DNA of 44,384 nt from a virus: positions 1 to 44,384 of the IMG/VR virus record IMGVR_UViG_3300047557_000594, one strand, 5' to 3'. Every line of letters begins with the position of its first letter. Positions within the stretch are counted from its first letter, which is position 1. Shown piece after piece: positions 1 to 35,840 of this stretch. Under the pieces are notes generated by a model. It saw only the letters and a program-made list of their open reading frames with translations. It did not search any database and was not told the DNA's origin. The translations under genes were made by a program, and so were the position numbers.

Positions 1-21
1 CTTAAATATAAAATAACTTTT

Positions 22-267
22 ATGGACTTCAAACTTACACCAAAACAAATGATTCATTTATGCGGTGGCCCAGCCAAAATCGCCCGCAGATTCAAGGTAA
101 CCACCCAAGCTGTGCATCGCTGGCAAAACGAGGGATTACCCGCTAGTAAGCTGATGGAATTGGCTGCCCAGATTGAAAAAGAATCGCATGGGCTAGTTAC
201 CCGCAAGGATATGTTTCCCCAGTCTTGGCATTTAATTTGGCCTGAACTTGCGGAGCGCAAAATTTAG
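22..267 (+). CDS. Cro/YdaS-like helix-turn-helix regulator
   Basis: An 81-residue DNA-binding protein with a Cro/C1-type helix-turn-helix at about residues 13-40 (GGPAKIARRFKVTTQAVHRW, then a wing-like GLPASKLMELA), the size and form of YdaS/Cro-like phage regulators. It likely binds operators near its own gene and acts as the early repressor or antirepressor. No ribosome site precedes the ATG, and the 21 bp upstream are identical to those before the second copy (35236-35481). By eye the two genes differ by 16 synonymous changes and no amino-acid change, so the protein is under very strong constraint. With no integrase in the unit, a role in lysogeny is unproven. Whether it represses or activates is inference. 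Confidence 0.85.
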   Translation: MDFKLTPKQMIHLCGGPAKIARRFKVTTQAVHRWQNEGLPASKLMELAAQIEKESHGLVTRKDMFPQSWHLIWPELAERKI

Positions 268-275
268 GTTATACT
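248..275 (+). promoter_or_regulatory. Promoter of the structured RNA
   Basis: A -35-like TTGCGG (248-253), a 16-bp spacer and a -10 TATACT (270-275) overlap the end of the regulator gene. The predicted start, about 281-283, falls just before the first conserved helix of the RNA. The second copy keeps the layout (TTGCAG 35462-35467, TATACT 35484-35489) although the spacer has changed. The -35 matches consensus only in TTG, so strength is uncertain. Confidence 0.6.
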
Positions 276-281
276 GATTGG

Positions 282-406
282 GCAGAGTGACATTTGCCTA
301 GTATTACCTACCGCAGACCCCATAGGGTTGCTTTGAGTGTTTAGTAAATGGTTGGTAGGTCATTTATTAAGCAATGTCACCTTAGAGCAACCTTATGGGG
401 TTTTTC
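282..406 (+). ncRNA. Structured RNA with covarying helices and a terminator-like 21-bp stem
   Basis: No open frame of note lies here. Helix A pairs 287-300 with 368-380, helix B pairs 306-312 with 354-360, and helix C pairs 317-337 with 381-401 over 21 bp (three G-U) and is followed by TTTTTC. The 5' arm of C lies inside the loop of B and its 3' arm directly follows A, so A/B and C form a pseudoknot or alternative folds. Compared with the second copy (35496-35620), pairs 291-376 (C-G to U-A), 292-375 (A-U to G-C) and 306-360 (A-U to G-C) show double compensatory change, direct evidence for RNA or cruciform pairing. It may be a short terminated RNA of about 125 nt, an attenuator, or the 5' domain of a longer RNA continuing to about 600. 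Function unknown. Confidence 0.75.
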
Positions 407-605
407 TATTTCTGCGGTCACAGTTGGGCGGGAACCGACACCAGCGACTGCGATACAAGTGCTACTGGGGGATAGTTGATGTAACAGCACACACATAGGT
501 GGCGAAGCTAGTGCCTATTCAACGAACGACTGGCGGGTTCTGTGGCTCCGAAAGGCAACAGTTGAAGGAATCTAGGATGGCTGGGTTCCGTTCACCAAAA
601 GGCAA
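407..605 (+). ncRNA. Near-invariant structured non-coding block
   Basis: From 379 to 605 the sequence matches 35593-35820 except one substitution (494) and one inserted A, while adjoining genes differ at many synonymous sites. Possible helices: 413-419 with 446-452; 431-435 plus 441-445 with 580-589; 459-463 with 486-490; 495-501 with 512-518; 519-523 with 561-565, enclosing hairpins 524-527/537-540 and 541-543/558-560 (GAAA loop). Several nest, and the first crosses the second as a pseudoknot. There is no conserved reading frame. It may be the body of a longer RNA starting at about 282, or a DNA element such as an origin or recombination site. It matches no RNA family I recognise. Confidence 0.6.
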
Positions 606-616
606 CTTACCTATAA

Positions 617-634
617 GTTATATATAGATATAAC
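617..634. promoter_or_regulatory. Conserved palindrome, possible regulator operator
   Basis: GTTATATATAGATATAAC is an inverted repeat with 7-bp arms and a 4-bp centre. The second copy at 35823-35840 has the same arms with a different centre (TTAT), in otherwise diverged AT-rich DNA. That pattern fits a dimeric protein site, perhaps for the Cro-like protein. The AT-rich surroundings could also be a melting region. Apart from this palindrome and the promoter at 748-792, I see nothing definite in 606-816. Confidence 0.55.
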
Positions 635-747
635 AAATAAACTCAAAAGTAACATAAATGGGTCATTAGCCCGTTTAATGCCACATTTATAAGCCATTAA
701 AAAAAATTGGCGCACACAAAGTTACACAATCACAAACATAATGCTTA

Positions 748-792
748 ATAAGGGTAAGTCCTAATAAACTTTATTTGATAACGCATTACGAT
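748..792 (+). promoter_or_regulatory. Operator-promoter of the rightward early genes
   Basis: An 18-bp imperfect palindrome, ATAAGGGTAAGTCCTAAT (748-765), is followed after exactly 21 bp by a -10-like TACGAT (787-792). The start would be near 799, ahead of the ribosome site at 808-812. The same palindrome-N21-hexamer layout occurs at 35872-35916 and, leftward, at 32962-32918. No good -35 hexamer is present. The palindrome centre lies about 42 bp upstream of the start, the usual place of a class II activator site, so activation rather than repression is my inference. Confidence 0.55.
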
Positions 793-816
793 TACAGTAT
801 TAACACAGGGGGAATT

Positions 817-1086
817 ATGAAATATTTAGCAGCTTTAGCAATTTTTGTAGCTACACCAATTTTTGCCCAAACTTATGTGATTACTGACCCAAGAGGTTAT
901 GTTTCTCAAACTGTACAAATACAGGGCAATCAGGGTCAAATAGTTGACAACCGTGGGTTTGTAACCCAAAGCATTACGGTTTATCCCAATCAAATTGTTA
1001 CACCGCAAGGATGGGCAGTTGGCACACCGTCTTATACTGTGCCTATGTCACCACCCAGCCCACCATCACCACGAGTATTGCAATGA
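817..1086 (+). CDS. Small exported protein, unknown function
   Basis: The protein has 89 residues and starts at the ATG behind AGGGGGAATT; an upstream in-frame ATG at 775 lacks a ribosome site. Residues 1-18 form a classic signal peptide (MKYLAALAIFVATPIFA, cleavage before QTY). The mature part has two copies of a GYVSQTVQI/GFVTQSITV-like repeat and a proline-rich tail. It is the first gene of the rightward early set. The second copy has a different exported protein in the same place (35943-36290), so the slot seems to be variable cargo acting in the periplasm or outside. No family recognised. Confidence 0.7.
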   Translation: MKYLAALAIFVATPIFAQTYVITDPRGYVSQTVQIQGNQGQIVDNRGFVTQSITVYPNQIVTPQGWAVGTPSYTVPMSPPSPPSPRVLQ

Positions 1087-1271
1087 GCCGAGCCTACGAA
1101 CTAGCCGATATGTTAGAAACACTTTGCGCCAAATCCGAAATTAAAGTTGGATTGGAAGAATTTGAGATTATGTTTCAGTCGGCTGAGATGCTTAAACAGC
1201 AAAGCCTAAAAATCCGTGAGCTACAAATGCGATTAGATGCATTAACAACACGAGTGGGGGAATATCAATGA
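1083..1271 (+). CDS. Small YELAD-type coiled-coil protein
   Basis: A 62-residue acidic protein starting at the ATG that overlaps the previous stop (ATGA). It has an N-terminal AYELADMLE motif, a middle A-EMLKQQS motif and a C-terminal heptad region (RELQMRLDALTTRVGEYQ). The C-terminal 20 residues nearly match the protein at 36241-36408. It belongs to a set of small proteins in both copies built from the same YELAD and MLRQQ modules. Function unknown; the coiled coil suggests binding to itself or a host protein. Confidence 0.65.
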   Translation: MSRAYELADMLETLCAKSEIKVGLEEFEIMFQSAEMLKQQSLKIRELQMRLDALTTRVGEYQ

Positions 1272-1504
1272 ACTCAAATGTTTTTTGTAATACATGCCAC
1301 AGAATACCAAGCCAATGCGGTTGTGGTCGTGGGATTAATTCATATGAATTGGCAGACCGAATTGAAGATAATTTTTATTTAAACGAAGCTGCAAAAATGT
1401 TACGCCAACAATCAGACCTCATAAAAGAAGCGTCTCAGTTTATTCAAGAACAAGGATTAGAAGGACAATGGATTATTTGGTCACAGAAAGCGAATAAGAA
1501 ATGA
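1268..1504 (+). CDS. YELAD-type protein with cysteine-rich N-terminus
   Basis: The protein has 78 residues and a start overlapping the previous stop (ATGA). Residues 7-19 carry a CNTC...CGCG cluster that could bind zinc, followed by NSYELADRIE and EAAKMLRQQSDLIKEAS. It therefore joins a metal-knuckle-like head to the module shared by 1083-1271, 36405-36752 and 36739-37095. No function known. Confidence 0.6.
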   Translation: MNSNVFCNTCHRIPSQCGCGRGINSYELADRIEDNFYLNEAAKMLRQQSDLIKEASQFIQEQGLEGQWIIWSQKANKK

Positions 1505-1695
1505 CTACTTTTACTACTGATGACCGCATAAACGCCTATAGCCACTACAAAATCTATGATGAGCATGGTGAGTTAATGCGTACCGTCAAGACTAAGCACG
1601 AAGCCGAGCATTTAATACAGACCTACACGGACTGGTCGTATCAATTTGTAAAAGCTGACAAACTTAAACTGGATTTGCCCGATGCGCCTTTTTAA
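1501..1695 (+). CDS. Conserved small phage protein, unknown function
   Basis: A 64-residue soluble protein, nearly the same in the second copy (37217-37411; two or three conservative changes). It carries YKIYDEHGELMRTVKTKHEAEHLI, which reads like a short beta hairpin plus helix. It overlaps the next gene by 14 bp in both copies, suggesting coupled translation. No named family recognised. Confidence 0.7.
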   Translation: MTTFTTDDRINAYSHYKIYDEHGELMRTVKTKHEAEHLIQTYTDWSYQFVKADKLKLDLPDAPF

Positions 1696-1918
1696 ATGGA
1701 CTGGCACAATACTGTGTTTGATTGGTATCGGATTGACTAGCCTAAACGAATACCCAGCCAACATTATTTTTGGTTTTGTGGGTAGCGTAATGTGGGCCAT
1801 AGCGGGTTGGAAGCAAGACGATTGGGCGTTGTTTTTAGTAGAATTTGCTGCGGTATTGATGTATTTTGTAGGGCTGTATTTGTATGTTTTTAACAACTTA
1901 ACTAAATGGGGGATTTAG
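1682..1918 (+). CDS. Small multi-pass membrane protein (DUF6552-like)
   Basis: A 78-residue hydrophobic protein with about three membrane segments (roughly 7-20, 25-43 and 50-70) and a conserved W-x-x-AGWKQDDWALFLVEF centre. It resembles the small inner-membrane proteins I remember as DUF6552, unverified. The second copy (37398-37634) is highly similar. Its early position suggests a role in the host envelope soon after infection, which is inference. Confidence 0.7.
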   Translation: MRLFKWTGTILCLIGIGLTSLNEYPANIIFGFVGSVMWAIAGWKQDDWALFLVEFAAVLMYFVGLYLYVFNNLTKWGI

Positions 1919-1919
1919 T

Positions 1920-2294
1920 GTGGAATTTGAGAAATTTTGGGAAGTGTGGCCTAAAAAAGTGGCTAAGAAAAAAGCTGAATTGGCTTGGCGGAAGCTCACC
2001 GAGCTTGAAAAGCGAGAAGCTATGGAAGCCTTGCCAAACCACCTTAAATACTGGGAAGTCAAACGAACCCACATAGACTTCGTGCCTTATCCCGCAAGCT
2101 GGATTAATGCTGCACGGTGGGAAGATGTATTAGACATGACACCCGCCAAAGAAAAAGTGGATAGGTCATGGATGTTTAGTCAGCAAGGAATTGAAGCAAA
2201 GGCCCGTGAACTTGGCATATTGGGTAATGGCTACGATACTTACGAATCATTAAAACGCAAGTGCATGGTGAAGTTAGGAATGGAACTTGAATGA
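1920..2294 (+). CDS. Replication-protein C-terminal-like domain protein
   Basis: A 124-residue protein starting at GTG behind GGGGGATTTA. The core FEKFWEVWPKKVAKKKAE ... LPNHLKYWE ... FVPYPASWINAARWED resembles the helical C-terminal module of phage O/DnaT-like initiation proteins, but the usual N-terminal winged helix is absent. It is a candidate helicase-loading or origin protein and the only replication-initiation-like gene in the unit. The second copy (37636-38010) keeps the GTG start and all these motifs. Assignment rests on motif resemblance only. Confidence 0.6.
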   Translation: MEFEKFWEVWPKKVAKKKAELAWRKLTELEKREAMEALPNHLKYWEVKRTHIDFVPYPASWINAARWEDVLDMTPAKEKVDRSWMFSQQGIEAKARELGILGNGYDTYESLKRKCMVKLGMELE

Positions 2295-2469
2295 GCAAGA
2301 GCATAAATATCGCTGTGCTGTGCGTTTGCTCTGCAAGTGGCGGCATGAATGGGGCTTGGCTAAATTTAGGGAATATCTATCAAAACATAAAATTGATAGT
2401 CATTTGCTAAATGGATTTGTTGAGCAATTTCGCAAAAATAATAAGGGGGATTGGAATACATGGAAATAA
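2287..2469 (+). CDS. Conserved small basic protein with TTG start
   Basis: A 60-residue protein starting at TTG within TTGAATGA, overlapping the previous gene by 8 bp. The nearby ATG at 2291 opens another frame, but only the TTG frame is conserved in the second copy (38003-38188: NEQEHKYRC, LCKWR, EWGLAKFREYLSK). Helical and positively charged. Function unknown; its position next to the replication-like gene may link it to replication. Confidence 0.6.
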   Translation: MNEQEHKYRCAVRLLCKWRHEWGLAKFREYLSKHKIDSHLLNGFVEQFRKNNKGDWNTWK

Positions 2470-2786
2470 ATGTTTACGAATTATTTGACGAAATAGAGCG
2501 GTTAAAAAAACCGTATAGCGATGCCAAAGGTAGGCTTGCTGGATTGGAAGCCGCTAAAAGTAGCGTCAAAGCAATTATGATGAAAAAAAGCTCAGAGCAA
2601 TCGCTTGGTGGTCAAGAGCGAGAAGCTTACGCAAGCCAAGAATATCAAGACCATTGCCAAAAAATTGACGAAGCAACTGCACAAGAAGCATTGCTAAAAC
2701 TAGAATTGTCGCTGGCCCAAATGAAGTTTGAAGCATGGAGAAGCGAACAAGCTACTAACCGCAATTTAGAAAGAATTACAAGATGA
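2460..2786 (+). CDS. Coiled-coil early protein, unknown function
   Basis: A 108-residue protein starting at the ATG 9 bp behind GGGGGA. It is almost entirely helical with SVKAIMMKKS, SLGGQEREAYASQEYQDH and KFEAWRSEQATNRNLERITR motifs. The last two recur in 39073-39402 although the N-termini differ. I recall similar proteins in many phages without a function. The following gene starts inside its stop codon (ATGA). Confidence 0.65.
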   Translation: MEINVYELFDEIERLKKPYSDAKGRLAGLEAAKSSVKAIMMKKSSEQSLGGQEREAYASQEYQDHCQKIDEATAQEALLKLELSLAQMKFEAWRSEQATNRNLERITR

Positions 2787-2950
2787 GAGAATTTGCCGAA
2801 GTATTTTTAGACTTAAACCGTATGATTAAAAAGCTACACAACGCCAAGCTAAAACAAGACCACACACAGGCTTACTTAATTAGCTGTGATGTAACAGACT
2901 TAGCCCAAGAGCTTGAGGATGTACTGCAAAACGATGCAAACATTCAATAA
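2783..2950 (+). CDS. Conserved 55-residue protein
   Basis: An open frame of 55 residues, MREFAEVFLDLNRMIKKLHN at its start, opening in the ATGA overlap with the previous gene. The second copy (39399-39566) encodes the same protein with only about two changes, while many third positions differ, which shows it is a real gene. Predicted helical and acidic. Function unknown. It overlaps the nuclease downstream by 17 bp. Confidence 0.7.
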   Translation: MREFAEVFLDLNRMIKKLHNAKLKQDHTQAYLISCDVTDLAQELEDVLQNDANIQ

Positions 2951-3314
2951 AATCATGCGTAATGCCTTTGCCACGCACATTGATTACGGTGCGTTTAAAG
3001 GTTTAATTCCTAGCAATCCCGCCTTTTGCCCTAGCAATATTGACGGCATAGCCGAGCGCAACGGCAAGTTTTTGGTAATGGAATGGAAACGCCCTAACGA
3101 AAAAGTTAGCGATGGGCAACGCAGATTACTGCAAGCCTTTGCCAAAACGCATAACTTTACGGTGGTTATTGTGCAAGGCAATACGGATGACCAACTGGTT
3201 ATTCAAGACTTTTGGCAAGTGCAACCCTATGGCTCATGTGTAAAATTGGGCCAAGGAGTTGAGGAATTTAAAGCCTTTTATGTAATGTGGTATGAATACG
3301 CCAATAATGTATAA
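2934..3314 (+). CDS. PD-(D/E)XK-type small nuclease
   Basis: A 126-residue protein starting at MQTFNKIMRN; the start is supported by the matching MTQTFNKIMRN of the second copy (39547-39936). The core SNIDGIAERNGKFLVMEWKRP gives a catalytic-type Asp near 37 and Glu-x-Lys at 50-52, followed by SDGQRRLLQAF, as in VRR-NUC or resolvase-like PD-(D/E)XK enzymes. It probably cuts DNA or branched intermediates. It overlaps the preceding gene. Substrate unknown. Confidence 0.7.
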   Translation: MQTFNKIMRNAFATHIDYGAFKGLIPSNPAFCPSNIDGIAERNGKFLVMEWKRPNEKVSDGQRRLLQAFAKTHNFTVVIVQGNTDDQLVIQDFWQVQPYGSCVKLGQGVEEFKAFYVMWYEYANNV

Positions 3315-3349
3315 TTTCATTAGTTTAACTAACATCATAGGGCAAACTA

Positions 3350-3895
3350 ATGGAAGAAGTTTGGAAAGATATACCTTTATTTGACGGTTTATATCAAGCA
3401 TCTAATCTTGGAAACATTAGGGCCAAAAAACGCAAAGTTAAAAAATATAGCCCGTATTACCAAAAAGTAATTGAGCAAACCTATAAGCAAAGACTGTTAA
3501 AACCAGTTGCAGATAAAAGCGGATATTACAGGGTGCATTTGGGTGTTAATGGCAAAAAATACAATGGTTCAGTACATAGAATGGTTTTGATGGCTTTTGT
3601 TGGTATGCCACAACAAGGCCAAGAATGTTGCCACAATGACGGAAACCCACAAAACAACAGATTAGAAAACCTTAGATGGGATACACATTCTGAAAACAAT
3701 CGTGACCGCAAACGGCATGGCACATACCCTAAAGGTAAAAACCACCACAATTACGGTAAATCAATGCCACCAGAATTAAAAGCCAAACTAATTGCATACC
3801 ATACTGGCATAAAGCGAAGCGATGAAATTAGAAAAAAAATGAGTGAAGCACAAACAAAAAGATGGGCTAATGTACAGAAACAAAAAGCTGCTTGA
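3350..3895 (+). CDS. Free-standing HNH homing endonuclease (NUMOD4/NUMOD3 type)
   Basis: A 181-residue protein. The N-terminus EEVWKDIPLFDGLYQASNLG is a NUMOD4 DNA-binding motif; an HNH core follows at about 77-120 (HRMVLMAFVG, CCHNDGNPQNNRLENLRW) and a NUMOD3-like segment at about 125-165 (GKSMPPELKAKL...RSDEIRKKMSEAQ). Such enzymes cut a target allele and spread by repair. It is absent from the second copy, where the nuclease runs straight into a Ref-type gene, so it sits at an exchange point. Its 3' end overlaps the next gene by 26 bp. Confidence 0.88.
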   Translation: MEEVWKDIPLFDGLYQASNLGNIRAKKRKVKKYSPYYQKVIEQTYKQRLLKPVADKSGYYRVHLGVNGKKYNGSVHRMVLMAFVGMPQQGQECCHNDGNPQNNRLENLRWDTHSENNRDRKRHGTYPKGKNHHNYGKSMPPELKAKLIAYHTGIKRSDEIRKKMSEAQTKRWANVQKQKAA

Positions 3896-4160
3896 AATAG
3901 CAAGGAAATTTCCGTGCCAAAATTGCGGAATACAAGATGGTACGGTAGTTGCCGCACATAGCAACCAATTACGAGATGGAAAAGGAAAAGGAATTAAAGC
4001 GCATGATTACAGAATCGCCAGTTTGTGCCACAAATGCCACTATGAAATTGACCAAGGCAGCAAATTATCAAAGCAAGAAAGATTGGAATTGTGGGAAAAT
4101 TCGCACAGAAACACGATTGCCTGCTTATTTGAACAAGGCTTTTTACATACCAAAGTTTGA
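3870..4160 (+). CDS. DUF1364-like zinc/HNH-fold phage protein
   Basis: A 96-residue protein beginning MYRNKKLLEIARKFPCQNCG, the usual start of this family; an in-frame ATG at 3843 lies deeper in the homing endonuclease. Cys pairs at 16/19 and 53/56 and the block VVAAHSNQLRDGKGKGIKAHD match what I know as DUF1364, an HNH-like phage family sometimes called a nuclease. Found only in unit 1. Together with the upstream homing gene it replaces the Ref-like nuclease of unit 2. Confidence 0.75.
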   Translation: MYRNKKLLEIARKFPCQNCGIQDGTVVAAHSNQLRDGKGKGIKAHDYRIASLCHKCHYEIDQGSKLSKQERLELWENSHRNTIACLFEQGFLHTKV

Positions 4161-4168
4161 AGAAATGA

Positions 4169-4206
4169 CCTACGAAACTACAAGGTTGCTCGCTATAAAT
4201 GAATGA
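4169..4206 (+). pseudogene. 3' remnant of a Ref-like nuclease gene
   Basis: The last 24 bp (4183-4206) match exactly the 3' end of the Ref-like gene of unit 2 (40163-40186), encoding the terminal RLLAINE and stop, and the preceding bases (TACGAAACTA) are still partly alignable. Nothing else of that gene remains here. This marks the right border of the replacement by the homing endonuclease and DUF1364 genes. Confidence 0.7.
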
Positions 4207-4279
4207 CCTTGCACTTTATTTTGGAATCATCATATTAATGCTTCCTTTAATAGCGTTGTGGATAGTATCAAAGTTCTAA
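4199..4279 (+). CDS. 26-residue membrane peptide
   Basis: The short frame MNDLALYFGIIILMLPLIA... is one membrane helix followed by WIVSK. It opens in the tail of the preceding gene (ATGAATGA). The second copy (40179-40259) encodes the same peptide with three changes and retains start and stop, so selection on the peptide is likely. Its 3' end overlaps the convergent protease gene by 12 bp. Confidence 0.6.
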   Translation: MNDLALYFGIIILMLPLIALWIVSKF

Positions 4280-4621
4280 GCTGTCTAGGCCAAACTCATC
4301 CCCCACGAGCTTACACCGCCTGCGAAACTCTTTATCATGGTGATTCCAGCGTTCACGGCTATGCGCCCATCGGCTCATGTGGATGGCTTCATGGCACATC
4401 GTTCTGAGCAATGTCGAAAAATGACCACACATAGCATCGCTAATTTGTATGGTGTGGGCGTATTTGCCACCCTCATCGTATAAATAGTAACCATAAGCGG
4501 TTTTGTCATGCACCACTTCAAATTTAATTTCGTCAGGCAAAGGCATTTTCCACCGACTAAATGGGTGGCAGCAATATATCGTTGAATACAGATTTTTTAA
4601 TATTGCTGGGGTTAGTTTCAT
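4268..4621 (-). CDS. SprT-like zinc metallopeptidase
   Basis: A 117-residue protein with the zinc protease signature HEAIH at residues 77-81 and a later HHDKEFRRRC segment carrying a third candidate ligand. Size and layout match minimal SprT-like domains, which in cells cleave DNA-bound or crosslinked proteins. A phage version could act on host DNA-binding proteins, which is inference. It overlaps the upstream phosphoesterase by 4 bp (ATGA coupling) and converges with the small membrane gene. The second copy has HECCH at the same place (40248-40601). Confidence 0.75.
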   Translation of the reverse strand: MKLTPAILKNLYSTIYCCHPFSRWKMPLPDEIKFEVVHDKTAYGYYLYDEGGKYAHTIQISDAMCGHFSTLLRTMCHEAIHMSRWAHSRERWNHHDKEFRRRCKLVGDEFGLDSLEL

Positions 4622-5574
4622 ACTTTCATTACTTGCCCACGGAAGTAGTACAAGCCCTTATCCTCATCAACAACTTCTGCTAGCTCAGGTGGCATAAGCT
4701 TACCGTTATTGTAAGTTAACACAGCGTGTCCAGCCCGCCAGTTGAGGGGTGCGTTTTCCGCATAAATAAATTGGCTGTCTTTAACACAAGCCAAAGTTCC
4801 TGTATCTACGCCATATCTAGTACCCGTATAGTCAGTCCACGGGGTTACCTTTAAGCTATGTAAATGACCGCTAACAAATGACCAACCTGATTTAAGGATA
4901 TTGTTGTAAACCGCATGAACGCCATTGTGCCAACGATGTTTAATCATTGTGTTTTGATTTACGGCAATACTCCAATACCATTTCCAATTTGGGGTATGGT
5001 CGGCTATGTCGAAACCTTTAATCCCTTGGTACTGAGGCATGAGGTTGCTAAGTTTTCCAGAAAATCTTAAATCGTGATTACCAATACAAATTAACAGATT
5101 ACACCCTGCTGGTCGTACAGCTTCAATATCTGCCAACCTTGCTTGGGTTTCTTCCAATTCTTCTTTAACGGTGGGGTGATTTTGCCAGCCAATACGGTGA
5201 TGGGCTGAAATTGTTGCAAAGTCGAACAGGTCGCCATTTAAAACAATTACTTTGGGTTTTAAATATTTGACGCATTGCACAAAAGCACGGTGGGCGGTGG
5301 TGATGTATTTGGGGTTGTAATGGCAGTCCGACCCAACCATAATGACCCCGTTTTCAAGGGTAATATTGCATTGCGTTTGTTCATCGGGAATATAAATATC
5401 AGGGCGACCACGGTTATCTACAGCTTTCAGAATCATGTCGTACTTTTTTTCAAGGCTAGCTCGTCTTTTTAGCACCGCACGGTACGCAATTCCTGTAATT
5501 TTGGCGATTGCTGCGACTGATTCGTGTTGCTTCCAAAGTGCTATGAAATCTTCATCGGAGATTTTTATAGTCAT
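4618..5574 (-). CDS. Calcineurin-like metallophosphoesterase with HTH-like N-terminus
   Basis: A 318-residue protein. Residues 5-45 look like a helix-turn-helix (DEDFIALWKQHESVAAIAKITGIA). The phosphoesterase core has the metal motifs GSDCHYN (81-87), NGDLFDF (113-119), GNHD (165-168) and GHLH (236-239). The enzyme should hydrolyse phosphomonoesters or diesters, possibly nucleic acid, with two metal ions. It is coupled to the SprT-like gene. The second copy (40598-41629) keeps the architecture but is strongly diverged, unlike its neighbours. Confidence 0.82.
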   Translation of the reverse strand: MTIKISDEDFIALWKQHESVAAIAKITGIAYRAVLKRRASLEKKYDMILKAVDNRGRPDIYIPDEQTQCNITLENGVIMVGSDCHYNPKYITTAHRAFVQCVKYLKPKVIVLNGDLFDFATISAHHRIGWQNHPTVKEELEETQARLADIEAVRPAGCNLLICIGNHDLRFSGKLSNLMPQYQGIKGFDIADHTPNWKWYWSIAVNQNTMIKHRWHNGVHAVYNNILKSGWSFVSGHLHSLKVTPWTDYTGTRYGVDTGTLACVKDSQFIYAENAPLNWRAGHAVLTYNNGKLMPPELAEVVDEDKGLYYFRGQVMKV

Positions 5575-5590
5575 ATAAGACCTGATTCGT

Positions 5591-5625
5591 GATAAAGTTA
5601 GCTTATCTTAACTGAAAATTGTTAA
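5591..5625. promoter_or_regulatory. Conserved divergent regulatory region
   Basis: Between the leftward phosphoesterase and the rightward VRR-NUC gene lie two adjacent inverted repeats: GATAA-N7-TTATC (5591-5607) and TTAAC-N8-GTTAA (5608-5625). They recur at 41646-41680 with one changed base although the adjoining phosphoesterase N-termini are unrelated in sequence. This fits operators controlling divergent promoters. I cannot assign clear -35/-10 boxes. The VRR-NUC ATG lacks a good ribosome site. Confidence 0.55.
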
Positions 5626-5631
5626 TAATCA

Positions 5632-5925
5632 ATGCCATACGCCCGTAAGATTGATGTAAATCAAACAAAAATAGTAGAAACCCTTAGAAAAGCTGGGGCT
5701 GATGTATATATTTTGTCAATGGTAGGTAGGGGAATCCCTGATTTAATGGTGTGCTACAACGGTGAAACTATCTTAATGGAAGTCAAGCGTGATGCAAAAG
5801 CCAAGTTCACCAAAGACCAACTTAAGTTCATCGCAAACTGGAAGGGTGGGCCACTAAGCCGTGTTGATTCACCTGAAGCTGCGCTACGAGCGATTGGATT
5901 AGTCCGTGTTGCTGACCAATCTTAA
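5632..5925 (+). CDS. VRR-NUC domain nuclease
   Basis: A 97-residue stand-alone VRR-NUC protein. The signature GIPDLMV (34-40) gives the catalytic Asp and MEVKRD (49-54) the Glu-x-Lys; KFTKDQLKFI follows. Such small PD-(D/E)XK enzymes resolve or cut branched DNA, so a role in phage recombination or maturation is likely. The second copy (41687-41980) differs at only three residues. The next gene begins within its last codons (20-bp overlap). Confidence 0.85.
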   Translation: MPYARKIDVNQTKIVETLRKAGADVYILSMVGRGIPDLMVCYNGETILMEVKRDAKAKFTKDQLKFIANWKGGPLSRVDSPEAALRAIGLVRVADQS

Positions 5926-6586
5926 AGTCACCGAATACAACCAAGACTACTATGACGAGCATAAAGATGCTGGTCTTGATTATCTTGGGCATGGCTATTG
6001 GCAAGAGGAATACGCCAAAATGGTTACAGAAGCCTGTAAAACGCCCCGTGACGGGTTTGTCGTAGATGCTGGGTGTGCGTGTGGCTCAATCCTAAAAGGT
6101 TTTCATAAGCTCAATATGCGGGTTTTAGGGGTAGATTTAAATGAATCCATGATTGGGTTAGGTCGTACCCATTTTGGGTATTACGCCAATGAGCTTGTTT
6201 GTGGCTCAATCGCTGACACCCCCGCATTGACTGAAAGCGTTGATTTGGTGCATACCGCCCAAGTCCTTGAGCATATCCCGCAAGACCAAATGGATGCCAT
6301 TTTGCATGAATTTTCAAGAATTTTAAAGAAAAACGGTAGAGTTTTCATATGTTTAGACGCAGTCAAGGATGGCGAAACTAAAGAAATGTATATGGGTGAC
6401 CCGACCCATGTAAATATTCAGCCGATTGAATATTGGTACAGATTGTTTGCCAAGCACGGGTTTATGTTTGATGTCGAAGCGTATAACAAATTTGTTAGGT
6501 CTAAATACAAGCCGACAGCCGACAAAGACGAGAACTTTTTTAATGCTTACCCTTATTGGAGTGTGTGGATTTTGCAAAAAACCTAA
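5906..6586 (+). CDS. Class I SAM-dependent methyltransferase
   Basis: A 226-residue protein with GTG start overlapping the VRR-NUC gene; the same GTG is kept in the second copy (41961-42641). Motif I is FVVDAGCACG (51-60), followed by the acidic VLGVDLNESM and the LVHTAQVLEHIP post-motif typical of Methyltransf_11/25-like enzymes. It lacks the (D/N)PPY motif of N6-adenine or N4-cytosine DNA methylases, so a small-molecule, sugar or protein target is more likely. Substrate unknown. Confidence 0.82.
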   Translation: MLLTNLKVTEYNQDYYDEHKDAGLDYLGHGYWQEEYAKMVTEACKTPRDGFVVDAGCACGSILKGFHKLNMRVLGVDLNESMIGLGRTHFGYYANELVCGSIADTPALTESVDLVHTAQVLEHIPQDQMDAILHEFSRILKKNGRVFICLDAVKDGETKEMYMGDPTHVNIQPIEYWYRLFAKHGFMFDVEAYNKFVRSKYKPTADKDENFFNAYPYWSVWILQKT

Positions 6587-6614
6587 TATAATTGGGTAAC
6601 TACAGGAGTTTTCT

Positions 6615-6971
6615 ATGGAAAATTGCGCTTTATTCCTAGCCACATTGCTACATTCTGCGACTAATGCGCATTTTTTCCATTTCACGACTGATTCGTATGC
6701 CAAACATAAGGCTTTGGCTAAATATTACGATGGCATTGTAGGCTTGGTTGATACTTTAGCGGAATCTTACATGGGTAAATACGGAAAGCTGACTAGCTTC
6801 CCAAGCGTTTACCACCAACCCAAAGACCCAATTAAATACATGGAATCGCTACAAAATTTTGTGGCTGATGCCCGTCAAGATTTGCCGCAAGATTCTGAAC
6901 TACAGAACATCATTGATGAGATTGCTGACCTTATCAATTCCACCACATACAAGCTCAAGTTCTTGAAATAA
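6615..6971 (+). CDS. Dps/ferritin-like helical protein (DUF5856-like)
   Basis: A 118-residue all-helical protein with a ribosome site AGGAG. LLHSATNAHFFHF...SYAKHKAL follows the Dps pattern of two ferroxidase helices, and LVDTLAESYMGKYG matches the D-x-x-AE-x-x-G region of Dps. It is shorter than a typical Dps and lacks the fifth helix. It may bind iron or DNA, or protect against oxidative damage. I recall phage homologues as DUF5856, unverified. The second copy (42669-43025) is nearly the same. Confidence 0.65.
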   Translation: MENCALFLATLLHSATNAHFFHFTTDSYAKHKALAKYYDGIVGLVDTLAESYMGKYGKLTSFPSVYHQPKDPIKYMESLQNFVADARQDLPQDSELQNIIDEIADLINSTTYKLKFLK

Positions 6972-6982
6972 AAGGATAAATT

Positions 6983-7168
6983 ATGCCACTCGTCAAATCA
7001 GGTAGCAAAGAAGCCGTAGGCAAAAACATTAAAAAAGAGATGGAAGCTGGCAAGCCTAAGAAACAAGCCGTGGCTATCGCATTGGCAACTGAGCGTAAAT
7101 ACGCTAAAGGCAACCGCAAAGCCAAACTTGAGGATGCTTACGCTAAATACATTGAAGAAAAAGCATGA
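6983..7168 (+). CDS. Small basic phage protein (DUF6496-like)
   Basis: A 61-residue lysine-rich protein; VKSGSKEAVGKNIKKEMEAG is a block common in small phage proteins I recall as DUF6496. It lies in a run of tiny basic genes between the early module and the terminase. Charge suggests nucleic-acid contact. Nearly identical in the second copy (43276-43461). Function unknown. Confidence 0.7.
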   Translation: MPLVKSGSKEAVGKNIKKEMEAGKPKKQAVAIALATERKYAKGNRKAKLEDAYAKYIEEKA

Positions 7169-7467
7169 GTAGGCGTGACCAAATCCGTGCTGCAATGGAT
7201 AAGCACGATAAGCCAATCGCCAAGACCACGAAAGGCAAAGGTCGGAATTACTTATCGACAAAAGAAGGTGCTGGCATGACGGCTAAAGGTCGTGAAGCAT
7301 ATAACCGTAAGAACAACGCTAATTTAAAAGCCCCCGCCCCAAACCCAAAGACTGAAGCTGACAAAGGTCGTAAGGCTAGTTTCTGTGCAAGGATGGGTGG
7401 GGTTGTCGCTAAAAGCAAAAACGCTGAACGAGCAAAAGCAAGCATGAGGAGATGGAACTGTGGCTAA
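7165..7467 (+). CDS. Basic phage protein (DUF6321-like)
   Basis: A 100-residue protein starting in the ATGA overlap. GAGMTAKGREAYNRKNNANLKAP-type sequence followed by RKASFCARMGGV and a WNCG end match phage proteins I remember as DUF6321. It is missing in the second copy, where a different gene (43037-43276) precedes the cluster, so it is optional. Function unknown. Confidence 0.7.
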   Translation: MSRRDQIRAAMDKHDKPIAKTTKGKGRNYLSTKEGAGMTAKGREAYNRKNNANLKAPAPNPKTEADKGRKASFCARMGGVVAKSKNAERAKASMRRWNCG

Positions 7468-7645
7468 AGAAGGTTTGTACCATAATATTCACCAAAAAAG
7501 GGCTAGGATTAAGGCTGGTTCAGGCGAGCGCATGAAGAAAGCTGGCGAAGAAGGCCGCCCAAGCGCACAAGACTTCAAAGATGCTGCTAAGACTGCTAAG
7601 AAACCCCGCAGACAAATGATTGCTGACGCTATGAAGGATATGTAA
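7460..7645 (+). CDS. Small basic conserved protein with GTG start
   Basis: A 61-residue protein, GTG start inside the end of the previous gene (8-bp overlap). LYHNIHQKRARIKAGSGERM and AKTAKKPRRQMIADAMKDM are conserved in the second copy (43458-43640), which uses ATG. This small family is common next to phage packaging genes. Function unknown. Confidence 0.7.
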   Translation: MAKEGLYHNIHQKRARIKAGSGERMKKAGEEGRPSAQDFKDAAKTAKKPRRQMIADAMKDM

Positions 7646-7797
7646 TGAAAACCAAATCTCAATCCGAACCCCAAAAGCTTGATTACTCCATGAAAGCTGG
7701 TAAACCAAGTAAGTTACAAGCTAATCAAGATAAGCGTGAGAAGCGTAAAGCTGCATTGTTATCGCACTTTAATAAATTTGCTAAGGACATGGCATAA
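7645..7797 (+). CDS. 50-residue basic protein
   Basis: A frame of 50 residues starting in the TAATG overlap with the preceding gene. The C-terminal half (NQDKREKRKAALLSHFNKFAKDMA) is conserved in 43643-43789 while the N-terminal half is not alignable. The last 34 bp are identical in DNA between copies, so that stretch may also carry a DNA-level signal (see 7764-7851). Confidence 0.6.
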   Translation: MKTKSQSEPQKLDYSMKAGKPSKLQANQDKREKRKAALLSHFNKFAKDMA

Positions 7798-7851
7798 ACT
7801 AAGTTTTAGTATTAGAATTTACCCTAACTAAATCAATCACTTGAGGTAGTA
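7764..7851 (+). promoter_or_regulatory. 88-bp invariant block before terS, possible packaging site
   Basis: These 88 bp, covering the end of the preceding gene and the whole intergenic space, are identical to 43756-43843, while both adjacent proteins differ. They contain ATTAGAATTTACCCTAAC (7811-7828), which matches in inverse orientation 14 of 18 positions of the early operator palindrome, but without the -10 box 21 bp away. Position directly before the small terminase gene is where cos/pac sites often lie. A late promoter or operator is the alternative. Confidence 0.5.
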
Positions 7852-8171
7852 TGGAATCTAAAGTAGAAACATCTAGAAAAGGCGGTAAGCCCAAAGGCTC
7901 GCCTAAAACTGGGGGCAGACAAGCAGGTACACCTAATAAAGCCACAGGCATAGCTAGGTTGGCTTTTGCTACTTTTGTTGATAACAACGCAGACAAGCTA
8001 CAAACTTGGCTTGATGAAATAGCCGCCAATGAAAAGCTTGGCCCTAAAGCCGCATTTGATTGCTTAATGCAAGTTGCTGAGTTTCATGTGCCTAAGCTGG
8101 CTAGAACAGAGCATATTGGTAGCGAAGAACAGCCTGTCAAAGTAATCCACGAACACAAGTTTTTAGATTGA
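7851..8171 (+). CDS. terS: Terminase small subunit (probable)
   Basis: A 106-residue protein directly before the large terminase. The N-terminus is basic and glycine-rich (GGKPKGSPKTGGRQAGTPNKAT), then helices ARLAFATFVDNNADKLQTWLDEIA and GPKAAFDCLMQVAEFHVPKLAR, as in small subunits that recognise the packaging site. TerL begins at a TTG overlapping its stop. The second copy (43844-44152) is similar. Called from context and features. Confidence 0.75.
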   Translation: MESKVETSRKGGKPKGSPKTGGRQAGTPNKATGIARLAFATFVDNNADKLQTWLDEIAANEKLGPKAAFDCLMQVAEFHVPKLARTEHIGSEEQPVKVIHEHKFLD

Positions 8172-9520
8172 AAGAGCTTGTTAAAAGGTACGAATACCCG
8201 TACAAGGCTAGGGATGTATTTACCGACTTTCACAAGCGTAAGCAACGCTGGGCTGTATTGGTTTGCCATAGACGAGCGGGGAAAACGGTGGCAACGATAT
8301 GCGATACGATTCGCAGGGCAGTTACCGAAAACAAGCCTGATGCCCGTTACGCTTACATTGCACCCTATTATTCCCAAGCTAAAAACATCGCATGGGATTA
8401 CCTTTTAAGGTTTGCTGAACCTGCTATTGTCAAAGCTAATCAATCTGAACTATGGGTTGAGTTAGTAAATGGGGCAAAAATAAGGCTATTTGGCGCAGAC
8501 AATCCTGACGCACTTAGGGGTTTATACTTAGATGGAGTCACTTTAGACGAATACGCTGATATGAAACCCCGACTTTGGGGAGAGATTATTCGCCCATTGC
8601 TGACAGACAGACAAGGTTGGGCTACTTTTATCGGTACGCCAAAAGGCCACAATACCTTTTACGACATATACCAGTACGCCACGCTAAATCAAGACGAATG
8701 GTATAGCAAGGTGCTACGAGCTAGCCAAAGTAAGCTAATTGCCCAGTCAGAACTGGATGATGCCTTGAAGTCTATGTCGATTGACCAGTATCAGCAGGAG
8801 TTCGAGTGTTCGTTTGAAGCTGCCATACTGGGTGCTATATACGGCACAGAGATGCGCTTACTGACCGATGCTGGGCGCATCACCAAAGTGGAGTGCGACA
8901 CTATGTTCCCAGTCCATACCGCATGGGATTTGGGCTACAACGATGCCACGGCTATTTGGTGGTTTCAGGTGGTGCATGGCGAGATTCGGGTATTGGATTA
9001 CCACGAAGCGCACGGTCAACCGATTGTGTATTACGCCAACCAAATTAAAGAACGACCCTACGAATATGGCACACATTGGCTACCGCATGATGCTCGTGCA
9101 AAAACACTAGCAAGCGGCGGAAGGTCAATAATTGAACAATTAATAGATAAATTGCCCCTAAAAAGCGGAAATTTGTTTAAAATTGTTCCAAATCTGTCAC
9201 TTCAAGACGGCATACAGGCAACACGCATGGCACTAGCAAGAACTTGGTTTGATGCCATGAAATGCCAAGAAGGGATAGAGTGTTTGCGTCAGTATCAAAG
9301 GGAGTACGATGAGGATAAGAAAGTATTTAGGGATAAACCCCGCCATGATTGGACTTCACATGGTGCGGATGCTTTCAGGATGCTTTCTATTGCTTGGCAG
9401 GATGAATCGGAAATTGCAAGACAAAACGCACCGATTCGTGGAATTACTGTTGGGCAAAACGAAACGACCTTAGAGGAAATGTGGCGCAGCACACCAACAA
9501 CTAAATATCAAAGGTATTAG
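8168..9520 (+). CDS. terL: Terminase large subunit
   Basis: A 450-residue packaging motor and nuclease. The ATPase domain has Walker A CHRRAGKT (33-40), Walker B GVTLDEYAD (123-131) and the coupling motif IGTPKGHN (about 149-156); the RNase H-like nuclease starts at AWDLGYNDATAIWW and ends near HGADAFRM. It cuts DNA from the concatemer and pumps it into the prohead through the portal. TTG start coupled to terS; the second copy starts with ATG (44140). Length is normal for the group. Confidence 0.95.
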   Translation: MKELVKRYEYPYKARDVFTDFHKRKQRWAVLVCHRRAGKTVATICDTIRRAVTENKPDARYAYIAPYYSQAKNIAWDYLLRFAEPAIVKANQSELWVELVNGAKIRLFGADNPDALRGLYLDGVTLDEYADMKPRLWGEIIRPLLTDRQGWATFIGTPKGHNTFYDIYQYATLNQDEWYSKVLRASQSKLIAQSELDDALKSMSIDQYQQEFECSFEAAILGAIYGTEMRLLTDAGRITKVECDTMFPVHTAWDLGYNDATAIWWFQVVHGEIRVLDYHEAHGQPIVYYANQIKERPYEYGTHWLPHDARAKTLASGGRSIIEQLIDKLPLKSGNLFKIVPNLSLQDGIQATRMALARTWFDAMKCQEGIECLRQYQREYDEDKKVFRDKPRHDWTSHGADAFRMLSIAWQDESEIARQNAPIRGITVGQNETTLEEMWRSTPTTKYQRY

Positions 9521-9522: not shown

Positions 9523-11811
9523 ATGAACGATACGCTAAACAAGACTTACGAAGATTGGTACAACACCATTGCCCAGTATGACAAAGCATTTCGGGAATGG
9601 GAAGCTAGAGTACCCCGTATTATTAAGCGTTACCGTGACGACAGCCGTACCCGTAACAACCCTAATGCCCGTTTTAATATCCTTTGGTCAAATGTTCAGG
9701 TTATTAAGCCTGCTATTTTTGCAAGACTTCCACGCCCCGATGTAAGCCGTAGATTCCGTGACAACGACCCGATTGGGCGTGTAGCGTCAATGATGCTTGA
9801 ACGGGCGTTGGAATATGAGATTGAACACTATTCTGACTACCGCTCCGCTATGGATAACGCGGTGCTTGACCGCTTATTGGGTGGGCGTGGCACGGCATGG
9901 GTACGCTATGAGCCACATATTGTTGCAGAGCAAAACGACCTAAACACAGGCGTAGCTGGTCAAGATGTAGGCAACGGAATACAGATTACAGAGGATGCCG
10001 ATGAAGCCGAAACGCAAGACGCTGAACTATTGGAATCGGAAGAACGCATTGAGTATGAGTGCGCCCCTGTTGATTATGTGCATTGGCGTGACTTTGGTCA
10101 TACTGTTGCTCGTACTTGGGAAGAAGTAACTGCCGTATGGCGTAAAGTCTATATGAGCCGCCAAGCCCTAATTGACCGTTTTGGCGAGGAAGTTGGTAGC
10201 CGTATTCCGCTAGACACTAAGCCTGAGAACGACAAGTGGGCTACAAAGCAGATGACTGCCGAGCATTACCAAGCGTGTATCTTTGAGATTTGGGATAAAG
10301 AGCAAGGCAAGGTATTTTGGGTTAGCAAGTCGATGGGTGAAATCCTTGACGAAAAGAATGACCCGCTACAGCTTGAGGGATTCTTCCCATGCCCCAAACC
10401 ATTGTTTGCTACGCTAACCACAGACAGCTTAGAGCCAGTACCTGATTTTGTTTTGTACCAAGACCAAGCCAAACAACTCGATACTTTGGCTGACCGCATT
10501 GACGGCTTAGTAAACGCCTTGCGTGTGCGTGGTGTGTATGACGCTTCTGAAGGTGCATTAGCCCGCCTGTTTTCTGAAGGTGAAAACAATACCTTGATTC
10601 CAGTCAAGAATTGGCAAGCATTTGCCGAAAAGCAAGGTATGCGTGGTGCGATTGACCTTGTTGACCTAGCCCCGTTTGCCCAAGCCTTACAGATGGCTTA
10701 TCAAGCAATGGAGCAAGTCAAGGGCCAAATCTACGAGATTATGGGCATTGCCGACATTCAGCGTGGTCAAACCGACCCCAATGAAACGCTTGGCGCACAG
10801 ATTATTAAGTCTAATAATGCTGCGGGTAGGCTTAAATACCTACAACACGCAGTCGTTGACTTTGCTACCGAACTCTTAAAGATTAAGGCGCAGATTATCT
10901 GCAAGCACTTTACTGAAGATACGATTGTCAAGATTAGTGGTGCAATGCAACTAAGCCCACAAGACCAACAGTTAGTGCCACAAGCCTTGATGTTGCTCAA
11001 GGATGAACCCGCTAAGAACTTCCGTATTGAGGTTACTAGCGATTCCATGATTTACCAAGACGAGCAACAAGAAAAGGCTGACCGTGTGGAGTTCTTGACC
11101 GCAGTTAGCCAGTTTATGAACAATGCGTTGCCAATCGCTACCAACGCACCTGAATTAACTCCGTTGCTCATGGAAATGCTTAAGTTTGGTGTGACCGCAT
11201 TTAAGGCTGGAAAAGGTATGGAAGGGCTTATTGATGAAACTGCCGACCAATTTAGAAATCAAGCTAAAGCGATGGAAGGCCAGCCTAAAGAACCACCACC
11301 TGAAGTGCAAAAGATTCAGGCTCAAACCCAAGCAAAGATGCAAGAGCTACAGATGGCTGCCCAACTCGAACAGCAGAAGATGGTTGCCGAGATGGAATTG
11401 GAAAAGGCTAAACAGGAGTATCAGGCACAAGAGAATCAGCTTAAATTCCAACTGGAAGAACAGCGTAACGCTCAAGACCGTGAGATGGAAATGAAGTTGG
11501 CTCAGATGAAGATGATGACTGAGCGCAACACCCAACTCCTATTGGCTTACATTAACAACGGGGCTAAGATTGAAACCGCCCGTATTTCGGCTGGTGTAGA
11601 TAGTGGCGAGGGAATTGCCGAAATGTATGACATGGATGAGGACATGGTGAAAGCCCAAGAACATCCATTAGCCCCTATCGCTAACGCTATTGCCCAAGGC
11701 AACGCAGAAATGACTGCGACTTTAGGTGCTTTGATTGATAAACTTAACCAACCCAAACAAGTTCTCCGTGATGAGAACGGCAAAATCATAGGAGTAACAA
11801 ATGCCCAGTAA
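9523..11811 (+). CDS. Portal protein, P22 gp1-like
   Basis: A 762-residue protein right after terL. The N-terminal wing/stem part (FREWEARVPRIIKRYRDDSR, LWSNVQVIKPAIFARLPRPDV) and the ERALEYEIEHYSDYRSAMDNAVLDRLLGGRG helix are typical of podovirus portals. A long Gln/Glu-rich coiled coil at about 590-670 would form the barrel. It forms the dodecameric ring for DNA entry and exit. The clear large size places it with P22-type rather than siphovirus portals. Confidence 0.88.
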   Translation: MNDTLNKTYEDWYNTIAQYDKAFREWEARVPRIIKRYRDDSRTRNNPNARFNILWSNVQVIKPAIFARLPRPDVSRRFRDNDPIGRVASMMLERALEYEIEHYSDYRSAMDNAVLDRLLGGRGTAWVRYEPHIVAEQNDLNTGVAGQDVGNGIQITEDADEAETQDAELLESEERIEYECAPVDYVHWRDFGHTVARTWEEVTAVWRKVYMSRQALIDRFGEEVGSRIPLDTKPENDKWATKQMTAEHYQACIFEIWDKEQGKVFWVSKSMGEILDEKNDPLQLEGFFPCPKPLFATLTTDSLEPVPDFVLYQDQAKQLDTLADRIDGLVNALRVRGVYDASEGALARLFSEGENNTLIPVKNWQAFAEKQGMRGAIDLVDLAPFAQALQMAYQAMEQVKGQIYEIMGIADIQRGQTDPNETLGAQIIKSNNAAGRLKYLQHAVVDFATELLKIKAQIICKHFTEDTIVKISGAMQLSPQDQQLVPQALMLLKDEPAKNFRIEVTSDSMIYQDEQQEKADRVEFLTAVSQFMNNALPIATNAPELTPLLMEMLKFGVTAFKAGKGMEGLIDETADQFRNQAKAMEGQPKEPPPEVQKIQAQTQAKMQELQMAAQLEQQKMVAEMELEKAKQEYQAQENQLKFQLEEQRNAQDREMEMKLAQMKMMTERNTQLLLAYINNGAKIETARISAGVDSGEGIAEMYDMDEDMVKAQEHPLAPIANAIAQGNAEMTATLGALIDKLNQPKQVLRDENGKIIGVTNAQ

Positions 11812-12205
11812 TCTTAAATATTCCAACGGTACTCGTAACGCCCAACAGGTTGGTTTAATTACCTACGCTGGGTCAGGTGCGCTTATTAACATCTATGCTG
11901 GTAGCCAACCCGCTAACGCCAATACCGCTATTTCAGGGCAAACCTTGCTAGTAACCCTTACGGTATCAGGTTCATTTGGTACAGACAGCAACGGAACGAT
12001 TACTTTATCGACTGTGACTAATGGTGTGGCAGTAGCGACTGGAACGGCAGCTTTCTTCCGTATCACCCAATCGAACGGCACAACCGTAGTGATGGATGGC
12101 TCGGTAGCTACAAGCGATGCCGACTTGGTGCTAAACAATACAAGTATTGCTACAGGTCAGGTTGTCAGTATCTCCGCAGGCACGATTATCAGAGCAAACC
12201 AGTAA
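11801..12205 (+). CDS. Putative virion beta-sandwich protein
   Basis: A 134-residue Thr/Ser/Gly-rich protein overlapping the portal end by 11 bp. Short alternating hydrophobic strands (TLLVTLTVSGSFGT, NGTITLSTVTNGVAVATG) suggest an all-beta fold. Position between portal and fibre genes supports a structural role such as head decoration or connector part. No family recognised. Confidence 0.6.
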   Translation: MPSNLKYSNGTRNAQQVGLITYAGSGALINIYAGSQPANANTAISGQTLLVTLTVSGSFGTDSNGTITLSTVTNGVAVATGTAAFFRITQSNGTTVVMDGSVATSDADLVLNNTSIATGQVVSISAGTIIRANQ

Positions 12206-31828: not shown

Positions 31829-31969
31829 CCAATACTGACGCTTTAACCTTGCTGGGTCGTAAATAAGATAGGACTGTAGCCGTAGCATATCCATATCTTC
31901 TTCCACATACTGTGGTTTTTGGTAATAAATGCCAATCTTAACCTTGCCTGTATCGTAAGGGATGTTCAT
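31766..31969 (-). CDS. Small membrane protein at the end of the leftward operon
   Basis: A 67-residue protein with a soluble N-terminus (YDTGKVKIGIYYQKPQYVEEDMDMLRLQSYLIYDP) and one C-terminal membrane segment (LLIGLGVFTLIITVLQS). Its 3' end overlaps the endolysin gene on the other strand by 63 bp, so leftward and late transcripts are antisense there. Function unknown. Confidence 0.6.
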   Translation of the reverse strand: MNIPYDTGKVKIGIYYQKPQYVEEDMDMLRLQSYLIYDPARLKRQYWLNRLLIGLGVFTLIITVLQS

Positions 31970-35199: not shown

Positions 35200-35228
35200 T
35201 TGTAAAAATAGCAACTTAAATATAAAAT
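35200..35228 (+). promoter_or_regulatory. Rightward promoter giving a leaderless regulator message
   Basis: TTGTAA (35200-35205), a 17-bp spacer and TAAAAT (35223-35228) place the start at about 35235, one base before the regulator ATG at 35236, and no ribosome site is present. The same DNA precedes the first copy (1-21). A leaderless message is known for lambda cI from PRM. The promoter diverges from the leftward one and shares the palindrome at 35191-35202. Confidence 0.5.
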
Positions 35229-35235
35229 AACTTTT

Positions 35236-35481: not shown

Positions 35482-35489
35482 GCTATACT
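35462..35489 (+). promoter_or_regulatory. Promoter of the structured RNA, second copy
   Basis: TTGCAG (35462-35467), a 16-bp spacer and TATACT (35484-35489), at the same distance from the RNA helices as in copy one. The hexamers persist although bases between the -10 and the RNA differ. Confidence 0.6.
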
Positions 35490-35495
35490 ATAAGG

Positions 35496-35620
35496 GCAGA
35501 GTGATGTCTGTTTAGTATTGCCTACCATAGACCCCATAGGGTTGCTTTGAGTGTTTAGTAAATGGTTGGTAGGCTATTTATTAAGCAACATCACCTTAGA
35601 GCAACCTTATGGGGTTTTTC
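35496..35620 (+). ncRNA. Structured RNA with terminator-like stem, second copy
   Basis: Homologue of 282-406. Helix A is 35501-35514 with 35582-35594 (one bulge), helix B 35520-35526 with 35568-35574, helix C 35531-35551 with 35595-35615 followed by TTTTTC. Relative to copy one, three pairs change on both sides and further changes are wobble-compatible, including those in the small hairpin TAAATGG/CTATTTA in the loop of C. Helix C itself is unchanged. Confidence 0.75.
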
Positions 35621-35820
35621 TATTTCTGCGGTCACAGTTGGGCGGGAACCGACACCAGCGACTGCGATACAAGTGCTACTGGGGGATAGTTGATGTAACA
35701 GCACACAAATAGGTGGCGAAGCTAGTGCCTATTCAACGAACGACTGGCGGGTTCTGTGGCTCCGAAAGGCAAACAGTTGAAGGAATCTAGGATGGCTGGG
35801 TTCCGTTCACCAAAAGGCAA
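35621..35820 (+). ncRNA. Near-invariant structured block, second copy
   Basis: Homologue of 407-605 with one substitution (35708) and one extra A in the junction after the GAAA-loop hairpin, both outside the paired positions I propose. The neighbouring DNA on the right (35821-35942) is mostly unalignable apart from the palindrome and the operator-promoter, so the conservation ends sharply. Confidence 0.6.
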
Positions 35821-35822
35821 AA

Positions 35823-35840
35823 GTTATATTTATATATAAC
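35823..35840. promoter_or_regulatory. Conserved palindrome, second copy
   Basis: GTTATATTTATATATAAC: the arms are the same as at 617-634, the 4-bp centre differs. It lies directly after the conserved RNA block, as in copy one. Confidence 0.55.

Follow-up and report, generated by a model that had tools for sequence, protein, structure and literature searches.

The window, that is, the whole stretch of DNA analysed here, is a virus record of 44,384 bases. The first ~9 kb recur in related form as the last ~9 kb, so that the locus described below is found twice, 35,214 bases apart, in the repeats starting at 1 and 35215. The two copies are 91% identical over their first 300 bases, and 35215-44384, which closes the record, is a syntenic copy of 1-9170 diverged by 10-17%. 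Instead of a single genome carrying this stretch twice, the record may represent an assembly that ran round a circularly permuted phage of ~35 kb and continued into a sister strain; the proteins searched included no integrase. The locus follows a Cro/YdaS-like regulator gene whose stop is at 267, and no open reading frame of at least 60 aa lies between this stop and 775. The original prediction had described a gene-free locus shared by both genome copies, and the copies at 1 and 35215 do align as claimed.

The features of the locus are collected in Table 1. It is one phage early-operon RNA gene with two domains, the second of which (417-606) is conserved independently of the first (282-416), and it is almost certain that this is a phage RNA with the structure given here. 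The original prediction had placed a structured RNA or attenuator ahead of the early genes, with a terminator-like stem and a pseudoknot or switch, and had named a lack of covariation in a larger alignment as the result that would speak against it. In large alignments the helices of both modules covary, and the locus is bigger and better conserved than had been described. The original prediction had missed the pseudoknots of module 2, and also the repeat sites coupled by identity, the most unusual feature of the locus. As far as the sequence allows one to judge, the RNA would control early transcription.

Table 1. Features of the RNA locus (all on the + strand; positions in the window).
Feature	Position	Strand	Evidence or remark
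Sigma-70-like promoter	248..275	+	sequence: TTGCGG 248-253, 16 nt, TATACT 270-275
Module 1, pseudoknotted terminator/antiterminator domain	282..416	+	covariation, folding, recurrent topology
P0 5' arm, GCAGA	282..286	+	pairs with 411-415; 95.8% of cells paired; A-U/G-C exchange in 11 rows
P0 3' arm, UCUGC	411..415	+	pairs with 282-286
Helix A 5' arm	287..297	+	pairs with 371-380; compensatory changes at 8/10 pairs
Helix A 3' arm	371..380	+	pair counts in alignment
Helix B 5' arm	306..312	+	pairs with hairpin D loop 354-360; hypervariable yet complementary; alignment-free test
Hairpin D	341..370	+	stem 341-350/361-370, 95% of cells paired; loop is B 3' arm 354-360
Helix C 5' arm	316..334	+	pairs with 384-402; crosses A; 89-94% of cells paired, compensatory changes
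Helix C 3' arm plus T-run 401-405, intrinsic-terminator-like	384..405	+	T-run invariant in 33 homologues
Module 1, copy 2	35485..35630	+	copy alignment; homologue set
Module 2, full RNA domain	411..607	+	extended covariance model R1, 176.5 bits
RF02932 Betaproteobacteria-1 RNA, copy 1	417..538	+	102.4 bits, gathering 49.4, model 1-120
P1	418-426/445-453	+	compensatory changes at 9/9 pairs
PX pseudoknot	441-444/465-468	+	96.6% paired; CCAG/CUGG, ACAG/CUGU, GUAG/CUAC, ACGG/CCGU
P2	459-463/486-490	+	94.8% paired
P3 pseudoknot	475-479/519-523	+	5/5 pairs compensatory
P4	495-499/514-518	+	encloses near-invariant GGUGGCGAAGCUAG
P5 pseudoknot	507-512/529-534	+	99.7% paired; U-A/C-G exchange
P6 hairpin	540-543/558-561	+	76-86% paired; loop bears site X
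P7 hairpin	568-575/581-588	+	68-74% paired in MAFFT alignment
Site X, AAAGGCAAC	551..559	+	identity coupling with Y; in P6 loop
Site Y, AAAGGCAAC	598..606	+	identity coupling with X; 606 is the 3' limit of conservation
Module 2, copy 2	35625..35822	+	R1, 178.9 bits; RF02932 at 35631-35752
X and Y, copy 2	35765-35773 and 35813-35821	+	AAAGGCAAA at both

The 5' domain and its promoter

From the position of TATACT, transcription probably starts near 281-282, which coincides with the first conserved helix of module 1, P0. This hexamer, already taken for the promoter in the original prediction, stands at a suitable distance from G282, and the module-1 homologues retain TAnnnT at the same place, even those with a different upstream gene. 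A consensus promoter scan of the window did not list the 248-275 promoter because its -35 element is weak.

For module 1, 33 distinct homologues were aligned with MAFFT independently of any structure, and covariation was counted over helices A, B, C, D and P0. Pairing was possible in 87.5% of cells, and 187 cells carried double changes, as compared with 62 in shuffled alignments and 15-58 with slid partners. The covariation score was 0.362, against at most 0.125 for the slid structures, which served as the control for all helices without a full phylogenetic null; for the sites X and Y described below, the control was a within-clade permutation. The three double changes reported earlier between the window copies are exact (C291-G376 to U-A, A292-U375 to G-C and A306-U360 to G-C), and P0 reads GCGGA/UCCGC in relatives. 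The earlier fold required corrections: D is a hairpin whose loop forms B, P0 closes A further out, and helix C, given as 21 bp, has 19 contiguous pairs followed by the T-run.

Helix B is arbitrary in sequence among homologues (ACCUACC, GGCUCUAUA, GCCCUUUAU, AAUCGGUA and others) and is for this reason misaligned by MAFFT, so it was tested by an alignment-free procedure. For the D loop and the upstream segment of the same RNA, complementarity scored 17.65, as compared with 10.92 (sd 0.59) for the partners of relatives and 13.9 for the best of 5000 permutations. Folding of module 1 gave -58.9 kcal/mol versus -31.75 kcal/mol for dinucleotide shuffles (7.9 sd better), the fold being C plus D. Crossing of A and C together with a T-run was also recovered in 19 of 94 upstream regions with no detectable sequence likeness, the shuffles giving an expectation of 0.0, which indicates that the topology itself is conserved. 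Another type of module 1, which looks like a further recurrent RNA domain, was observed at seven loci (L280, L288, L295, L302, L276, L308 and L347); it opens on a near-invariant GTCGGAAGTGACGCTCCGG and ends, directly before module 2, in TTCCGAC or a similar sequence.

Module 1 is probably an attenuator: helices A, B and C each covary, C crosses the other two, and one of the two structures ends in a U-run. Helices A and B are complete once 380 has been transcribed, and the 3' arm of C (384-402) comes after. Since the 5' arm of C lies 1-6 nt from B and ~6 nt from D, B and full C can hardly coexist, an exclusivity derived geometrically from linker length. As the polymerase advances, B and A would be the first to form. 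With the 5' arm of C caught between the two, the terminator would be blocked and the downstream RNA made; where B or A failed, C would form and transcription would stop near 405, leaving an RNA of ~125 nt. Taken alone, C+D far exceeds A+D in calculated stability (-34.6 versus -14.2 kcal/mol), so antitermination would have to be kinetic, and would be adjustable. Module 1 resembles known intrinsic-terminator attenuators in its competing helices, one of them with a U-run, and differs from these in that the competing form is a pseudoknot (B) between a hypervariable loop and an upstream segment. Rfam scans revealed no ligand, leader peptide or known aptamer for module 1 and, at a permissive threshold, only chance matches to microRNA families.

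Module 2 and the RF02932 family

The original prediction had recognised no known RNA family at the locus. This stands for 282-416 and 539-606, which fall in no Rfam family, and is wrong for 417-538, where an Rfam scan identified RF02932 in both copies at 102.4 bits, about twofold above the cut-off. The match covers the full-length model and includes its three hairpins (P1, P2 and P5); the RNA also occurs in Betaproteobacteria and their phages, as listed below. The Rfam model, in which the core is typed as an sRNA, is limited to 120 nt and these three hairpins; absent from it are PX, P3, P4, P6, P7, the X/Y sites and module 1. To our knowledge, no function has been assigned to the family.

In a MAFFT alignment of 58 diverse sequences, the eight helices of module 2 were paired in 88.7% of cells and showed 579 double-change cells versus 206 after shuffling, with a covariation score of 0.538 as compared with at most 0.127 for slid structures. 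The crossing helices PX, P3 and P5 were supported as well as the non-crossing ones, P5 being doubly compensated in Acidovorax phage AP1 (GCCAGA/UCUGGC), while P6 and P7 were weaker than the other helices in this alignment. Minimum free energy folding of module 2 did not differ significantly from shuffles (z -0.77), as expected because the RNA is pseudoknotted; support there comes from covariation. An orphan Rfam entry of 120 nt thus becomes a multi-pseudoknot phage RNA of ~195 nt with a 5' switch domain and a defined genomic setting. The added pseudoknots, the coupled repeats, the 5' domain, the early-operon setting and the cultured carrier are new, although some of these may be present in the original description of the family.

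Homologues were collected by four IMG/VR scans, one scan of genome contigs and whole-genome searches, which yielded 213 loci, 190 of them over the full span and 140 distinct. The covariance model R1 finds one copy per full record and matches two named records, Acidovorax phage AP1 (110 bits) and ctpbd312 (MW202545.1, 114 bits). The RNA was detected in 7 of the 399 genomes searched in the order Burkholderiales, 5 of them above the cut-off (~1-2%), and an RF02932 RNA is also present in Azonexus (L155). BLAST with the window locus gave no match in phages and plasmids, and BLAST with a divergent member found AP1. An exact 14-mer search of genome contigs returned mostly chance matches and was dropped. 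In the cultured phage AP1 (OM049504.1), which offers a ready experimental system for the RNA, the unannotated RNA lies at 11851-12059 (9852-10060 of locus record L390) and occupies the gap between the primase gene, ending at 11821, and the next gene at 12115. In MW202545.1 (5652-6109, L391), two hypothetical proteins annotated on the strand of the RNA and overlapping it, UOF78433.1 and UOF78434.1, are probably spurious open reading frames.

Sites X and Y

The 3' part of module 2 repeats itself imperfectly in tandem, as GGCGGGTTCTGTGGCTCC-G-AAAGGCAAC (533-559) and GGCTGGGTTCCGTTCACC-A-AAAGGCAAC (580-606); the unit measures ~47 nt and is present once in full and once in part. X and Y are the last 5-12 nt of each unit; they vary between phages and agree within a phage. 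The mean longest stretch common to X and Y was 6.67 nt, as compared with 4.27 (sd 0.11, maximum 4.67 of 5000) when Y was permuted and 3.65 for the reverse-complement control. Permutation within clades (at most 15% core distance) gave 6.76 versus 5.93 (sd 0.13, 0/5000), and the excess held at every clade cut, again with 0/5000. Two loci whose cores are 99% identical (L092 and L362) differ from each other by a G to A change that is found at X and again at Y. Between the window copies, X gains an A and Y changes from CAAC to CAAA, and two out-of-sample cases agree with the rule, AP1 having GAGCAGA twice and L248 CCGCAAT twice. We know of no RNA family that is defined by identity covariation, and such coupling could reveal an RNA function missed by searches that consider complementarity only.

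Short direct repeats can in general be homogenised, and X and Y might be alike merely through gene conversion or recent duplication. The flanks argue against it: GGCUCC before X and CACC before Y remain different while X equals Y across very diverse sequences, which makes homogenisation a very improbable cause of the identity. Repeated units are a mark of type III toxin-antitoxin RNAs, and paired recognition sites one of IS110 bridge RNAs; X and Y resemble both in this respect. A repeat antitoxin, or another RNA processed at its repeats, would account for the tandem units, yet the large conserved body is not repetitive, no toxin-like gene is common to the records compared and the downstream neighbour varies, so that we consider this reading highly improbable too. 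Among the nine records compared, neither a type III toxin nor an IS110-family recombinase or transposase is shared, and the window proteins searched, a subset of all, contain no IS110-family recombinase. By these comparisons, the RNA of the locus is neither a type III antitoxin nor a bridge RNA.

In cis, module 1, the core, the downstream region and the stretch separating the two sites contained no complement of the sites beyond chance. Elsewhere in the phages there was no enrichment of copies or of complements (29 versus 34.6 expected and 26 versus 26.7); as both stood at chance level, the idea that X and Y are operators, iterons or antisense sequences was dropped. The one further complement of X found in the phage is the template strand of Y. 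The shared stretches of at least 6 nt are 75% purine, a composition that favours RNA-DNA hybrids. Mismatches between X and Y are asymmetric (X=G,Y=A 45 times, the reverse once), which would fit an rG-dT wobble and is confounded by fixed differences adjacent to CUCC/CACC; it was therefore set aside as proof of a DNA hybrid.

Genomic setting and possible roles of the RNA

In the loci examined, the RNA is sense to early or replication genes and often lies directly behind genes for ParB-like proteins, helicases or primases. The RNA follows a Cro-like gene, is flanked by RusA/HNH genes on one side and ParB-like/helicase/primase genes on the other, or follows a primase gene at 34-56 nt, in which last case module 1 is usually absent. 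The gene following the RNA differs among loci. At L101 and L060/L246, module 1 is replaced by an HNH endonuclease gene, which stands 15-32 nt upstream of module 2. The nine RNA-bearing records compared have no protein family in common, the maximum being 4 of 9, and an obligate phage protein partner was rejected on this ground; a host machine or nucleic-acid pairing is thus the likelier partner.

The put RNAs of phage HK022, of ~70 nt and two stem-loops, need no phage protein and belong, like the RNA described here, to an early operon near cro, putR lying ~270 nt downstream of the PR start (PMC9378689). Nascent module 2 might in the same way bind RNA polymerase in cis and allow readthrough of the early operon, X and Y being contacts; the sense orientation downstream of a Cro-like gene, as for putR, the absence of a shared phage protein and the strongly invariant core would all suit this. 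Module 2, with ~195 nt and several crossing helices, is nevertheless not put by its anatomy. Terminator-like sites downstream in the window occur at chance number, and the strong one lies upstream, in module 1. We know of no identity-coupled sites in put, and antitermination alone gives no reason why X, though variable, must equal Y, so that we regard it as unlikely.

A trans-acting RNA or ribonucleoprotein, in which X and Y are identical recognition sites for one host RNA or DNA target or protein, is in our view improbable to a similar degree. It accounts for two exact copies of a site, since the target may lie outside the phage, and it suits both the terminator domain and own promoter present in many phages and the sRNA type given to the core by Rfam. 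However, near-identical RNAs differ at the sites, so the target would have to change equally fast, and in many phages the RNA sits tight within an operon, with no promoter region of its own. The same signature of identity would be left by a target in the host, or by one of its proteins that binds the two sites.

The reading we favour is an attenuator-gated early RNA that hybridises through X to the template strand of Y, because it predicts the identity directly, needs no phage protein and fits both the purine content and the early or replication setting; as a whole we give it, on sequence evidence, a probability of about 0.35. In phage T4, R-loop origins have the RNA anchored as an RNA-DNA hybrid. 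Compact module 2 would here present loop X to the template strand at Y, and this pairing, which taken singly we put forward tentatively, would anchor the nascent RNA as an R-loop. The R-loop would most likely open or prime early replication, or else keep the RNA on the transcribed region. An RNA primer is not obviously needed, since the phages carry their own helicase and primase, and an extremum of GC skew lies near the RNA in some records only, with no consistent origin there. It is rather doubtful, though conceivable, that the whole widespread family of phage early RNAs consists of self-addressed R-loop RNAs, with an arbitrary, co-evolving address and a pseudoknot attenuator as gate, which open replication or hold the transcription complex.

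The precedent for this reading is RNA II of ColE1, a structured RNA made by the host polymerase that needs no plasmid protein and acts through a persistent RNA-DNA hybrid with its template (PMC5043065). Its mechanism predicts an upstream RNA segment that matches the sense strand of a downstream site, as X matches Y here. In contrast, the two RNAs are unrelated in sequence and structure, and a role in replication would for the phage RNA be an extrapolation.

Two observations were made elsewhere in the window. A 210-aa protein encoded on the minus strand (31966-32601), within a leftward block, matches a PHROG 'ferredoxin' moron family (E 5.5e-84). In copy 2, a 42-nt repeat with 90% identity (36582-36623 and 36928-36969) lies inside two consecutive small open reading frames, which suggests a recent gene duplication.
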